Under the pieces are notes generated by a model. It was not told where the DNA came from. It searched no databases and saw only the letters and a list, made by a program, of their open reading frames with translations. Position numbers and translations under genes: made by a program. This document shows, piece after piece, positions 3,528-25,078 of a stretch of 38,610 nucleotides of DNA; within the stretch, counting starts at the first letter, position 1, and each line of letters starts with the position of its first letter. Origin of the DNA: an uncultured Rickettsiales bacterium (lineage in GTDB: Bacteria > Pseudomonadota > Alphaproteobacteria > Rickettsiales > UBA1997); NCBI GenBank assembly GCA_905478245.1, contig CAJQHT010000044.1, positions 1 through 38,610 on the forward strand. Direction: 5' to 3'.

Positions 3528-4391
3528 ATGACTAAAAATATTATTATTGCTAATTGGAAGATGAATCAATCATTTGATGAAGCTGAGAAATGGCTGAATG
3601 AATTTGGTGATGTTATGGCAAAATCAGTAACTTTACCGGATGTTGTTTTATGTCCACCTGTAATATTAATGGATTATATTGATGAGCTTTTACTATCAGA
3701 TGAATTGGATATTTTGCAAGAAAAAGATAAAAATATAGAAGAGTTGGAGGAAAAAGAGCTTGAGATTTTGACGGCTGGAATCAGGGTGCTGAATCTTGGG
3801 GGGCAAGATTGCGCTATTGAGCAAGAAGGCGCATTTACTGGTGATATTAGTGCAAAAATGCTAAAAGACGCAGGTTGTAATTATGTTATTATAGGTCATT
3901 CGGAAAGAAGGCGACATCATTTTGAAAATAACGAAATTGTTAGAAAAAAAGCCCTAGCAGCTTTAGATCAAGAGCTATTGCCAATTTTATGTATTGGGGA
4001 GTCTTTGGAATTAAGGCAGAATGGCAATTATCTTAATTTTATTAAAGAGCAAATCGAAAACTCTATACCTAAAGATACAGATGTTAATGATTTAGTAATT
4101 GCTTATGAGCCGGTTTGGTCAATTGGAACTGGTAAGGTTCCATCTATTTCCGACATTTCAGAAGTGGCGGATTTTATTTGGCAAGAAATTTCTGGCAATA
4201 AGGATTTTGCTAAAATTAAGAATTTTAGAATTGTTTATGGCGGTTCAGTTACTCTTGATAATTCTAAAGAAATATTAGAAATTAATAATATTGCTGGGCT
4301 TTTAATTGGTGGCGCCAGTCTTAAGGCTGATATTTTTGCTAATATTGTAAATTTGAGTGTTGGAAAGAATAATTCCAAAACCCATCTTTAA
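3528..4391 (+). CDS. tpiA: Triosephosphate isomerase
   Basis: TpiA interconverts dihydroxyacetone phosphate and glyceraldehyde 3-phosphate. The active-site residues are present: K11 in NWKMNQ, H124 in IIGHSERR and E194 in AYEPVWSIGTG, followed by the YGGSV phosphate-binding loop and GLLIGGASL. At 287 residues it is longer than the usual 250 or so. About 25-30 extra residues, very acidic (EEDK-rich), sit at about 56-82 before the conserved GGQDC. The last six codons (part of N282, then SKTHL and the stop) lie in the left terminal repeat of a MITE-like element, which has replaced the original 3' end. It is third in the rnd-coaE-tpiA run. Confidence 0.95.
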   Translation: MTKNIIIANWKMNQSFDEAEKWLNEFGDVMAKSVTLPDVVLCPPVILMDYIDELLLSDELDILQEKDKNIEELEEKELEILTAGIRVLNLGGQDCAIEQEGAFTGDISAKMLKDAGCNYVIIGHSERRRHHFENNEIVRKKALAALDQELLPILCIGESLELRQNGNYLNFIKEQIENSIPKDTDVNDLVIAYEPVWSIGTGKVPSISDISEVADFIWQEISGNKDFAKIKNFRIVYGGSVTLDNSKEILEINNIAGLLIGGASLKADIFANIVNLSVGKNNSKTHL

Positions 4392-4688: not shown

Positions 4689-5888
4689 CTATGGACGAGA
4701 TTCGCTAATGATAATTTTCTTAACTTCACCAAATCCATTAAAATTTGTGCGAGAAACCTCGCTATAGGCTCCTAACTTATCAAGTGAAATCCAATCACCA
4801 ACTTGTGCATCTTTTGGTAACATAAAAGGTCCTTTCATCATATCAACAGAATCACATGTTGGTCCTGCAAAGCGAAAAGGCATCAATTCCTCTTTGTAAT
4901 CATTTTCATAATTATGCCCTTCTTTTCTTATAAGGCGGGCTGGATAAGATAAGCCAATAGATCCTCCTGCCTCAAATAGGCCACCATAGGTACCATCATT
5001 AATATAAAGAATATCATCCTTCTTGCCCTCAATGCGAACCACTAAAGAACCGCCATTAGCCACTAGCCCACGCCCAGCTTCACATAATAGATTTACATTC
5101 TCTAAGCCTACATCGTCTAGGGCATTGGTAATAACATCCATATAGTTCTTAAGTGGCAGTAAAGGTTTGTTTATATTTAAGTCAGCGGGAAATCCTCCTC
5201 CAATATCTAAAGATTCAATAGTTACTCCGCTTTTTGCCACAAGATTTGCTACGTAGCGTATGGTAGTACCATAAATTTCTGGATCTATACAATTGTGTGC
5301 CAACATGAAAAGACACACCTAGAGATTTATATCTCAGGCGACAGGCTTTTAACAAAGAAACTGCGTCATCAAGTTTGGCGCCAAATTTAGTTGAAAAATC
5401 CTTGGCCACATTGCCTCCAGACAAGCCGATACGCACAAAGAGTTCTAAATCTTGAGCTTCTGGTAGAGTTTGCATAATTTTGTCAAGCTCGCCGCGACAA
5501 TCAAGCACAAAGGATCTGACGTCATGAGTATAATAAGCTGCAAAAATAGCTTCTGGAGATTTAATGGGGTGCATAAAGTAAATATTGGCTAGAGGTAATA
5601 ATTTGTGGATTAATTTAATTTCACCTAGTGAGGCAGCATCAAAACAATTAATGCCAAGAATTTAAGGAAGATCTTGTCTGGATTGCATTTTACCGCATAC
5701 ATAGTTTTACCAGGAACCAGCTCCACAAAATCCTGAGCTTGTTTTTGAATTAAATTTGTTTCAATTACTGAGATTGGAATTGATGAATTTAACTTTCGGA
5801 TCGAGTCATCACTTATGCCAAAGTGGCCATCGCCAAGAGTGGGTTTGTTAATAGTTGATTTTATTGTCTTGATTAAATCTAGCAGCAT
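4689..5888 (-). pseudogene. Ornithine/lysine/diaminopimelate-type PLP decarboxylase, frameshifted twice
   Basis: This is a fold-III (alanine racemase-like) decarboxylase, closest in pattern to ornithine decarboxylase, which makes putrescine. Family motifs run in order but across three frames: the PLP lysine in YAVKCNPD, then CFDAASLGEI, FHVGTQ, IGGGFPA, EAGRGLVA and GPTCDSVDMM with the catalytic Cys-Asp. The first break is near 5661-5663, where loss of one A in a run separates IFLK from ILGINCFDAAS. The second is near 5291-5294, where one extra T separates HVGTQ from CIDPEIYG. Repairing both gives about 399 residues, normal for the family. The likely start is the ATG at 5888, preceded by AAAGGA; a GTG at 5918 is possible. 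All catalytic residues survive, so inactivation is recent, or these are assembly errors. Confidence 0.88.
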
Positions 5889-6069
5889 ATTCCTTTCATA
5901 TAATGGTATTGATAACACAAACCGTTGCCAAGTGAGGAATTTCCTCAGGTTAACTAAAATTCACGTCATTACATTACCAATAAAGGAATCTGTATGTGCG
6001 TTGAAAATAAAATATATATTTTATTTTAATAATCAAGAAAAAACTAGTTTAAAAATATAACTTTGTAAG

Positions 6070-14260: not shown

Positions 14261-15147
14261 ATATCAGATTTGATAAGATGCTAGATGATTATAAAATTAA
14301 TAAAATTATAGATTTAGCGATAGAGGAAGATTTAGGTGATGATGGTGACGTTACTTCAAATTTAACAATTGATAAAGATAGTGAGATTAATTTTAAAATA
14401 TCTAATCGCGAAGATATAGTCTTGTGTGGAGTTGATTTTGCTTTGTTGGTATTTCAGAAAATTGACAAGAATCAGCAAATTTCTTTGACGCGGCATTTTA
14501 ATGATGGTAGTAAATTAGCTAAAAATAGTGTCATAATATCTGGATTTGGAAATGCTCGCATTATATTTGCTGCAGAAAGAATAGTGCTTAATTTAATGCA
14601 ACATCTTAGTGGTATTTCAACAAAAACCAGTAAATTTGTAGCACAAATAAATGGTAAAGCCCAAATTCTTGATACTAGAAAAACAATTCCTGCTTTTAGA
14701 GAGTTACAAAAATATGCAGTAAAAATAGGGGGAGGAGGAAATCATAGGATGAATTTGCATGAATCCATTTTGATAAAAGATAATCATATAGCAGCAGCTG
14801 AAGGTATAAAAAATGCTATCAATAAGGCAAAAAATAATATTAATAATTTAAAAATTGAAGTTGAGTGTGATAATTTAGAACAAGTTTCTGAAGTTCTGGA
14901 GGTTGGTGGCGTTGATGTGATTATGCTTGATAACATGAATTTAGAAAAAATAAAAGCGGCAGTAAAATTGATTAATAAAAAAGTAAAAATTGAAGTTTCT
15001 GGCAATATAACTCTAGAGAGGGTGGCGGAAATCTCAAATTTAGAAATTGATTATATTTCAGTTGGAGCTTTAACTCATTCAGTTAATGCGGTTGATATTG
15101 GTTTAGATATATTATACCAAGATCCATCTTTAAACTATAATAACTAA
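14242..15147 (+). CDS. nadC: Nicotinate-nucleotide diphosphorylase (carboxylating)
   Basis: NadC converts quinolinate and PRPP to nicotinate mononucleotide, a step of de novo NAD synthesis. The 301 residues show DLGDDGDVTS near the N-terminus, ERIVLNLMQHLSGIST, the PRPP/quinolinate site DTRKTIPAFRELQKYAVKIGGG, NHRMNLHESILIKDNH, VEVECDN-like EVECDN, and ISVGALTHSV at the end of the barrel. The family normally stops at about DIGLDI. The last ten residues here (292-301) are encoded by the left terminal repeat of a MITE-like element, which also supplies the stop codon. It overlaps the preceding gene by 19 bp. Confidence 0.94.
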   Translation: MSKEELNIRFDKMLDDYKINKIIDLAIEEDLGDDGDVTSNLTIDKDSEINFKISNREDIVLCGVDFALLVFQKIDKNQQISLTRHFNDGSKLAKNSVIISGFGNARIIFAAERIVLNLMQHLSGISTKTSKFVAQINGKAQILDTRKTIPAFRELQKYAVKIGGGGNHRMNLHESILIKDNHIAAAEGIKNAINKAKNNINNLKIEVECDNLEQVSEVLEVGGVDVIMLDNMNLEKIKAAVKLINKKVKIEVSGNITLERVAEISNLEIDYISVGALTHSVNAVDIGLDILYQDPSLNYNN

Positions 15148-15285
15148 AATAACTTATATTCTTTATCTTTTTAACCATAGATCATCAAAAAGCCTTACAC
15201 CCTATGCACATAGGGAGATAAGTTTTTTAACAATCTATGTCTAAAAATATTTTGAATATAAGTTATTTAAAAATGAATCTTGGTA
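15115..15285 (+). mobile_element. MITE-like element, full-length copy 4, spanning the nadC end and murU leader
   Basis: This copy is 171 bp, the same length as the copy at 23612. It starts TACCAAGATCCATCTTTAAA and ends AATCTTGGTA. It is flanked by TTA on both sides (15112-15114 and 15286-15288), a target duplication. It is strongly diverged inside but keeps ATCAAAAAGCCT and CTAAAAATATTTTG at the expected places. The murU start codon follows 5 bp after the element, so the element forms the murU leader. Confidence 0.85.
15194..15228 (+). terminator. Hairpin plus T-run inside repeat copy 4 (possible nadC terminator)
   Basis: CTTA...TAAG and CCCTAT...ATAGGG form a two-part stem around a GCAC loop, followed by TTTTTT. 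The stem occupies the place of the central hairpin of the repeat family but uses different bases, so pairing has been kept while sequence has changed. It fits an intrinsic terminator after nadC. Confidence 0.6.
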
Positions 15286-22666: not shown

Positions 22667-23554
22667 ATGAAGCACAATAAAAGTAAAATTATTAAAAAAA
22701 ATAATCAGCTGAATGTTAGTGCTATTTTATTACCCATTGTTATTTCGGTAATATTATTATTGATTAAGTTATATGGTTATTTTATTACTGGTTCTTTAAG
22801 TATTCTTTCCTCATTTTTAGATTCATTCATGGATGCTTTTGTCTCTGGATTAAATATGGCTGCAGTAATTTATGCTTCAAAACCACCAGATGAAGATCAT
22901 CCTTTTGGTCATAATTCTATAGAAGATATTGTTGGTTTAATTCAGGCAACATTTATTGCTACCTCTGCTATTTTTATCTTATATAAAGCTTTTGATAATA
23001 TCGTAAATCCTCAAATTATAGAAAATAATATTATTGGTATTTGGATAATGTGTATTTCTTTAATATTATCATTATTTATCGTAATTTATCAAAAATATAT
23101 TATCAGAAAAACTAATTCTGTTGTAGTGGAATCGGATATGATGCATTATTTAACAGATGTTTTGGTATCTGGGGCAATAATTATTTCATTATTCTTGGCT
23201 GCTTATCCTATGTTAGGTTTTATGGATCCAATTTTAGCTAGTCTAATCGCTTTTTATATATTATCTGCCGCCCTTAGAATTGGAAAAAGATCTTTTAATA
23301 ATTTAATGGATAAAGAATTAAGCTTAAGTGAACAGAATAAAGTTAAGAAAATCATTGCTAATAATAAAGATGTTAAAGGATATCATGCTTTTAAAACGAG
23401 ACGTTCTGGCAATAGGGTGTTTGTGCAGATGCATGTAGATTTAGATAAAAACCTTAATTTATTGAAGGCTCATGATATTATTGATGAATTGGAGCATAAA
23501 ATTTCTGATTTATGGCTTGAATCTGATGTTATTATTCATATGGATCCAGTTTAA
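22667..23554 (+). CDS. fieF: Cation diffusion facilitator family efflux protein
   Basis: This inner-membrane antiporter exports Zn2+, Fe2+ or related divalent cations. The 295 residues have about six hydrophobic segments, the metal-site motifs DSFMD (DxxxD) in the second segment and HYLTD (HxxxD) in the fifth, the DEDHPFGH loop, and a cytoplasmic C-terminal domain from about 210 with HAFKTRRSGNRVFVQMHVDLD. This pattern fits the FieF branch; the metal is not certain. The start codon sits directly after a truncated repeat element. It stands alone as an operon. Confidence 0.88.
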   Translation: MKHNKSKIIKKNNQLNVSAILLPIVISVILLLIKLYGYFITGSLSILSSFLDSFMDAFVSGLNMAAVIYASKPPDEDHPFGHNSIEDIVGLIQATFIATSAIFILYKAFDNIVNPQIIENNIIGIWIMCISLILSLFIVIYQKYIIRKTNSVVVESDMMHYLTDVLVSGAIIISLFLAAYPMLGFMDPILASLIAFYILSAALRIGKRSFNNLMDKELSLSEQNKVKKIIANNKDVKGYHAFKTRRSGNRVFVQMHVDLDKNLNLLKAHDIIDELEHKISDLWLESDVIIHMDPV

Positions 23555-23565
23555 TTCTGGCGCAA

Positions 23566-23908
23566 TGCCAGATCACATCTTTAAAATAGGTGAAAATAAT
23601 AAATAATCTAATACCAATTCCCATCTTTAAAATGGGTTAAAATAATAAATAATCTAACTTTATATTTTTTGATTAAAATCATAAAAAGCCTCGCGAAATA
23701 TGTACATATTACGACTCGTTTTTTATAATTTTTCTTACAAAAAATATTTTGTTATATCATTCATTAAAGACGGGAGTTGGTATAACTTCATATTTTTTGC
23801 TTAAAACTACAAAAGGCCTCGTATAATATGAACATACTACAACTCATTTTTTACCAATTTTACCATAAAAATATTTAGCATTTAATTTATTTATAAGTTA
23901 AAATGGTA
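23566..23908 (+). mobile_element. Old MITE-like copy 6, interrupted by a younger copy and forming the lpxB 3' end
   Basis: The left part (TGCCAGATCACATCTTTAAAA to AATAATCTAA) and the right part (CTTCATATTTTTTG to ATGGTA) join into one element of about 169 bp once the younger copy at 23612-23782 and one TAA are removed. The old copy is flanked by CAA on both sides (23563-23565 and 23909-23911). Its right end lies in lpxB, where it encodes YHFNL and the stop codon. Confidence 0.85.
23612..23782 (+). mobile_element. Young MITE-like copy, complete, nested in the older copy
   Basis: The 171-bp copy runs from TACCAATTCCCATCTTTAAA to GGGAGTTGGTA and is flanked by TAA on both sides (23609-23611 and 23783-23785). 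Its target is intact on either side and can be rejoined without gaps, which proves insertion. It has the best-preserved ends and interior, so I use it as the reference copy. Confidence 0.92.
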
Positions 23909-25078
23909 CAATATTTCAATGGCAGCTTTCTTGCTTGGCTGTTCTTTAGAGTTTAGCCCTAGGGTTTTTAATATTTCTTGACTTTCTTTAATTTGTTCCT
24001 CTTGCTTCTCTTTATTTGTCATTAATTGTTCTAATTTTTGGGCAATTTTTTCAGCTTTGCAATTATCTTGTAGCATTTCTGGTATAAGTTCTCTGTTTAA
24101 GATTAGGTTAATTATGTTAGCAAATTTAACTTTCACCAATCTTCTTAAGATGAAATAGGTTAGGGCATTTGTTTTATAGGCGATGATCATTGGTATTTTA
24201 TAAAGAGCTATTTCTAGAGTGTTAGTTCCTGATTTAGCAAGAGCAAGGTCTGTATTATTAAATAACTCTATCTTATCTTCTTGATCGATTATAATTGACT
24301 TAAAATTATAATTTTGTGATATTTTGCTAATTATACCTTTTGTTCTTGCTATAATTGGTAAGCAAATCGTTAAATTTTTATGGGTTTTTTGAATAATTTG
24401 AATAGCTTTAATCATTTCCGGGAAAATACGTTTAATTTCTCCTATTCTGCTTCCTGGGGTTAGGCAAATTATTTTATTAGTAGTATCTATTTTGTATTTT
24501 TCTCTAAAATTACTATTTTTAATTAGAGTATAATTTTCAACTATGGGGTGGCCAATGAATTTGGTTTTTAGACCATATTTTTTAAAATATGGCGGTTCAA
24601 AGGGTAATATTACTAGCAGTAAATCAAATAATTTAGCTATTTTCTTTGCCCTTTTTGCACGGTAGGCCCAAACTGTTGGAGCTATAAAATGTATTTTCTT
24701 AATTCTCTGAGATATTTGATATTGTTGTAATTTTTTAATGACACGGAAGCAGAAATCAGGAGCGTCAATGGTAATAACGATATCAGGTTGAAATTTAATA
24801 ATTTCTTGGGTAGTTTGATTGATTCTTCTAATTAATTTTGGAATATGGGGTATTATTTCAAAAAATCCCATTAATGATAATTCTGACATGTCAAAAATTG
24901 ATTTTAAACCTTCTTTTTCTAAATCTGGACCACCAACTCCACTGATTTTTAACTGTTTTCCTGCAAAATCTGGATTATCTTTTATTTCATCTTTGATATT
25001 TTTTAGTAACTTGCCTCCAAGTACATCTCCTGAGGCCTCCCCTGCTATTACAAATAATTTAATGGTATTTTTACTCAT
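23891..25078 (-). CDS. lpxB: Lipid-A-disaccharide synthase
   Basis: LpxB joins lipid X and UDP-2,3-diacylglucosamine to make the lipid A disaccharide at the inner membrane. The 395 residues have the GT19 pattern: FVIAGEASGDVLGGKLL at the start, SLMGFFEIIPHIPKL, VITIDAPDFCFRV, HFIAPTVWAYRAKRAKKIA, FIGHPIVENY, TPGSRIGEIKRIFPEMI and AKSGTNTLEIALYKIPMIIAYK. It implies the organism makes lipopolysaccharide, unlike Anaplasmataceae. The last five residues and the stop codon come from an inserted repeat element. It is convergent with fieF and divergent from asd. Confidence 0.95.
   Translation of the reverse strand: MSKNTIKLFVIAGEASGDVLGGKLLKNIKDEIKDNPDFAGKQLKISGVGGPDLEKEGLKSIFDMSELSLMGFFEIIPHIPKLIRRINQTTQEIIKFQPDIVITIDAPDFCFRVIKKLQQYQISQRIKKIHFIAPTVWAYRAKRAKKIAKLFDLLLVILPFEPPYFKKYGLKTKFIGHPIVENYTLIKNSNFREKYKIDTTNKIICLTPGSRIGEIKRIFPEMIKAIQIIQKTHKNLTICLPIIARTKGIISKISQNYNFKSIIIDQEDKIELFNNTDLALAKSGTNTLEIALYKIPMIIAYKTNALTYFILRRLVKVKFANIINLILNRELIPEMLQDNCKAEKIAQKLEQLMTNKEKQEEQIKESQEILKTLGLNSKEQPSKKAAIEILYHFNL

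Follow-up and report, generated by a model that had tools for sequence, protein, structure and literature searches.

The nearest described case to the repeats analyzed here is RUP of Streptococcus pneumoniae, a short non-coding repeat of 107 bp with 108 copies, terminal inverted repeats (TIRs) matching an IS630-family element, and a target containing TA. RUP has been attributed to IS630-Spn1, and its mobilisation in trans by this element was inferred indirectly (PMC2229807). The likeness is one of description. Unlike RUP, the Rickettsiales MITE family of this study spans 33 to 184 bp, duplicates 3 bp of the form TWA, and finds its matching IS630 only in another genus. Miniature insertion sequences are also described from the order Rickettsiales itself, namely mISOt1, mISOt2, and mISOt4 of Orientia tsutsugamushi, which share the TIRs of their parent elements; they are likened here by description, and the sections of that source drawn upon here do not tie them to IS630 (PMC10732058).

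The length of the target duplication separates the family from its presumed relatives. IS630 and ISY100 duplicate TA, 2 bp (PMC2170065); they belong to the IS630/Tc1/mariner group, have an AT target, and represent the family to which the presumed partner transposase belongs (NF033545, PF13358). Unlike these, the MITE duplicates a 3-bp TWA, and two complete IS630 copies from related genomes (L245 and L242) show TAA on both sides. TAA duplications occur in most members of the Fot transposons of the pogo superfamily (PMC7386202), eukaryotic elements that share the IS630-Tc1-mariner group and are likened to the present family by description. The literature searched, which had ISfinder outside its scope, yielded no report of a 3-bp duplication made by a bacterial IS630. 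Measured against that same literature, the MITE family is of a known type and its unusual part is the duplication length.

Nested copies in the window

The window is contig C44, a stretch of 38,610 nucleotides from the 1.41 Mb, 67-contig genome of an uncultured Rickettsiales bacterium (G000). Within it, a complete young MITE copy interrupts an older copy of the same family (Table 1).

Table 1. Positions of the nested copies and neighboring genes in the window, and of short, paired, and abutted elements elsewhere
Feature	Position	Strand	Size or basis
Cation-efflux gene	22667-23554	+	
Left flank CAA, older copy	23563-23565	.	sequence
Left part of older interrupted copy	23566-23611	+	direct repeat with young copy; alignment
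Left target-site duplication TAA, young copy	23609-23611	.	sequence; consensus with single TAA here
Young complete MITE copy, TACCAATTCCC...GGGAGTTGGTA	23612-23782	+	171 bp; aligned with 36 other copies
Right target-site duplication TAA, young copy	23783-23785	.	sequence; consensus comparison
Right part of older interrupted copy, including lpxB stop codon	23786-23908	+	alignment; frames
lpxB stop codon	23891-23893	-	
lpxB	23891-25078	-	
Right flank CAA, older copy	23909-23911	.	sequence
Short element, same ends, TAA both sides	L086:1096-1129		34 bp
Short element, same ends, TAA both sides	L100:1028-1060		33 bp
Short element, same ends, TAA both sides	L101:1018-1111		94 bp
Pairs around a single TWA (G000)	C3:144, C3:3569, C8:33867, C9:52804, C10:1018, C12:43523, C57:17342		
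Abutted junctions (G000)	C4:60, C4:9478, C4:9650, C7:25714, C32:2501, C38:15937, C62:15280, C65:109		

When the young copy and one TAA were taken out, the older copy was restored at 169 bp. It aligned continuously with the family consensus from end to end, with 132 of 169 positions identical, and its halves rejoined without loss or gain. In the young copy, 160 of 170 positions were identical to the consensus, and the divergence from the consensus amounted to 22% for the older copy and 6% for the young copy. At the interrupted place, the family consensus (38 aligned rows) reads AATAATCTAACTTTATA with the unbroken target CTAACTT, and TAA is single in uninterrupted copies and double in the nest. 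As the consensus holds TAA once and the nest holds it twice, the family itself provides a paralogous empty site and identifies the nest as a true insertion. A lone match of TAA with TAA would be weak evidence because targets are almost always TAA or TTA; it is the empty site in the consensus that makes the case for insertion decisive.

The earlier note had described a 171-bp young copy flanked by TAA inside a 169-bp older copy flanked by CAA, and every coordinate and flank it gave was right. The alignment of the restored older copy that it proposed was run, with the continuous match reported above. Its claim that the family moved as a unit at least twice is supported by the nesting together with 3-bp duplications at both levels. 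The nesting also bears out the relative age order it had drawn. The two divergence values agree with this order but could by themselves reflect an older subfamily, and the order depends on the nesting. As a clean natural record of transposition, the nest fixes both the element boundaries and the 3-bp duplication without a related strain.

Nesting itself is ordinary. By estimate, approximately 110 elements of approximately 170 bp cover slightly more than 1% of the genome, giving about one internal hit per 110 insertions, so that one nest needs no special targeting.

The MITE family and its neighboring copies

The copy survey was search-based and drew on approximately 70 sequence stretches; about 45 strong copies were found in the 1.41 Mb genome. 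Full copies are mostly about 84-99% identical genome-wide and carry the TIRs TACCAAWTCCC...GGGAWTTGGTA. A scan for the 19-nt terminal repeat with at most 2 mismatches resulted in 221 matches, 109 forward and 112 reverse, while the reversed terminal-repeat pattern, used as a control, had 0 matches in G000. Identical 3-bp flanks occurred in 35 of the 37 copies with both flanks readable, 19 of them TAA and 16 TTA, compared to 46% when left and right flanks from different copies were paired as a chance control. With the element recurring genome-wide and its flanks matching this often, the nested structure in the window is far beyond chance. Identity of the flanks over a fourth base occurred in 0 of 37 copies. 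A 2-bp TA duplication was considered for the family and rejected, as the third base matched too in 35 of the 37 copies.

Elements come in three size classes, 33-34, 94, and 170-184 bp, which have their ends and TWA flanks in common; the units of 33-94 bp could be in-place internal deletions rather than separate jumps. All units (33-184 bp) are non-coding and too short for a transposase gene. Together with the TIRs, the fixed-length target duplication, and the high dispersed copy number, this lack of transposase coding capacity places the hairpin-forming family among the MITEs. Other MITE families are also present in G000. The right copies of L229 and L232 have ends like those of the IS630 elements of G004 C20 and G039 C75, and another family occurs at positions 15115-15285 of the window with the ends TACCAAGATCC.

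Seven pairs of elements flank one single TWA, and two of these pairs join different MITE families. Pairs of this kind are far more common than random landing would give, and they are read as separate insertions beside an existing copy because two of them unite different families. TA was found beside the target in 14 of 33 cases against a background of 21% (p ~0.005), a preference that was sought post hoc and is suggestive only. At eight junctions, the copies are abutted, with GGTA directly followed by TACC and no TWA between them; seven of these junctions are head-to-tail and one, on C62, is head-to-head. The two-copy array on C32 is bordered by TTA on either side as one unit. In several contigs, the contig ends inside abutted arrays.

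Presumed partner transposase and alternative explanations

Neither the PF13358 profile nor the G004 protein used as query detected an IS630/DDE_3 transposase in G000, where an unassembled IS630 copy is possible because the assembly is in 67 contigs. Autonomous candidates in this genome, defined as paired TIRs 1.1-2.2 kb apart, were rejected as host genes between two MITEs (alaS and an ABC-type ATPase). Across 61 genomes of the family, the terminal-repeat scan gave many matches in G000, G008, G041, and G012, fewer in G004 and G042, and few or none elsewhere. In G008, from another genus, the MITE TIR encloses a different interior. When a 22-nt terminal repeat was searched in genome contigs, the only match was the assembly of G008, an uncultured Rickettsiales MAG, in a search from which the window's own records were perhaps excluded.

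The link to IS630 comes from G004, a genome of another genus in the same family. Seven contig ends of G004 carry TACCAATTCCCATCTTTAATAC joined to both ends of a transposase gene, and the MITE TIR and these IS630 ends are identical over 19 nt. The G004 IS630 copies with the exact MITE TIR are all cut by contig ends. An intact related domain in the same genome was assigned to IS630 (NF033545, 4.1e-42, over the cut-off; PF13358) and shares 81% identity with the contig-end copies. The target in G004 is read as TNA, since the flank triplets at the contig-end copies are TAA, TTA, TCA, and TGA. Complete IS630 copies were found in G004 (L245, 1103 bp, TIR TACCAAGATTCATCTATAAT vs. TACTAAAATTCATCTATAAT) and in G039 (L242, 1090 bp, perfect TIR TACCAATTATCAAATTTAAC), both with the flanks TAA/TAA. 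Their TIRs are of the TACCAA type and related to the MITE TIR but not identical to it, and G000 also has MITEs with ends resembling both complete elements. Inward of the terminal repeat, the MITE has no resemblance to the visible IS ends. The family is IS630-linked and not a typical IS630 derivative, given its 3-bp TWA duplication.

From these sequence comparisons we infer mobilisation of the MITEs in trans, by IS630-type transposases that have since been lost or were not assembled. Supplied in trans, such a transposase of the IS630 family (DDE) would bind the 19-nt TACCAAWTCCCATCTTTAA ends, excise the element, and insert it where TWA, or more broadly TNA, has been opened by a staggered cut of 3 bp; repair of this cut would make the 3-bp duplication. 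In G004, the complete partner IS630 would bear TACCAATTCCCATCTTTAA at both ends. The nest would be one more such insertion, which by chance took place at a TAA within an existing copy. Very probably, then, the young copy is a non-autonomous MITE that entered an older family copy by DNA transposition, with an IS630-family transposase presumably acting in trans.

Several other explanations were weighed against this insertion. Adjacent and abutted tandem copies in G000 show that copies can be rearranged, and the interruption might accordingly stem from recombination or slippage between two copies. This is extremely improbable, as the young copy extends intact to both TIRs and is accompanied by an exact duplication of 3 bp that are single in the consensus, and the seamless rejoining of the older halves leaves boundaries that would not be expected from recombination. 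Mobilisation of the MITE by an IS5/PIF-Harbinger-type transposase is very unlikely. This group has 3-bp TWA or TNA targets, which the observed TWA duplication fits, and the sole DDE_Tnp_1 match in G000 is indeed a frameshifted IS5/IS1182-like transposase remnant (C9:18613; L117:761-2123). The remnant, however, has different ends, GGGGACCGTCGCAAA, and PF13359 had no match in G000, so that the searches with PF01609 and PF13359, yielding only this remnant, largely refute a partner of the IS5/Harbinger type. The IS630-type gene that adjoins the exact MITE TIR in G004 and the related IS630 copies with TAA duplications likewise argue against it.

The repeat could also be kept for a function, as a bidirectional terminator or an RNA hairpin between convergent genes, with its mobility incidental or past. 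On either strand, folding of the young copy is far stronger than that of shuffled sequences (z -7.3 and -7.4), and the nest does lie between convergent genes. Strong hairpin folding is, however, expected of any MITE because of its long inverted repeats, copies occur in many contexts, and decay has left the older copy at 78% identity with a degraded right end. In the Rfam search, no family scored above threshold, from which it follows only that the element fits none of the described families; a single sub-threshold tRNA match lay outside the element. Retention for such a function is considered unlikely.

For a broader reading of the family, the chances appear about even. Under it, an IS630 lineage in this Rickettsiales family would use a 3-bp TNA/TWA target rather than the 2-bp TA and would drive several MITE families across genera. 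New copies would repeatedly land in the duplication beside existing ones (at least seven pairs, with different families joined in two), and arrays of abutted copies lacking a duplication would form as well. The analysis ties a large MITE family of an uncultured Rickettsiales to an IS630 lineage in which the duplication has apparently shifted from 2 to 3 bp.

Gene ends within the elements

The convergent genes on either side of the nest are a cation-efflux gene and lpxB, and lpxB terminates within the older copy, which supplies the stop codon and the last five lpxB codons, YHFNL. Most LpxB relatives stop at the preceding EIL or close to it. The LpxB relatives returned were at most 56% identical, with none from a same-genus genome. 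A cation-efflux gene beside lpxB was not found in the other 28 lpxB loci, each of which was available with only about 1.5 kb of flank, and a syntenic relative for reading an orthologous empty site was not present in this set.

Among the 37 copies, elements end open frames of at least 160 codons in at least 7. That small elements of this kind provide ordinary genes with their stop codons is relevant to annotation. In the window, the stop codons of tpiA, nadC, and lpxB are located inside elements (positions 4391, 15147, and 23891, respectively). A decarboxylase-like gene, its identity guessed from sequence, seems to be split over three frames on the minus strand at positions 4689-5918 of the window and is perhaps decaying.
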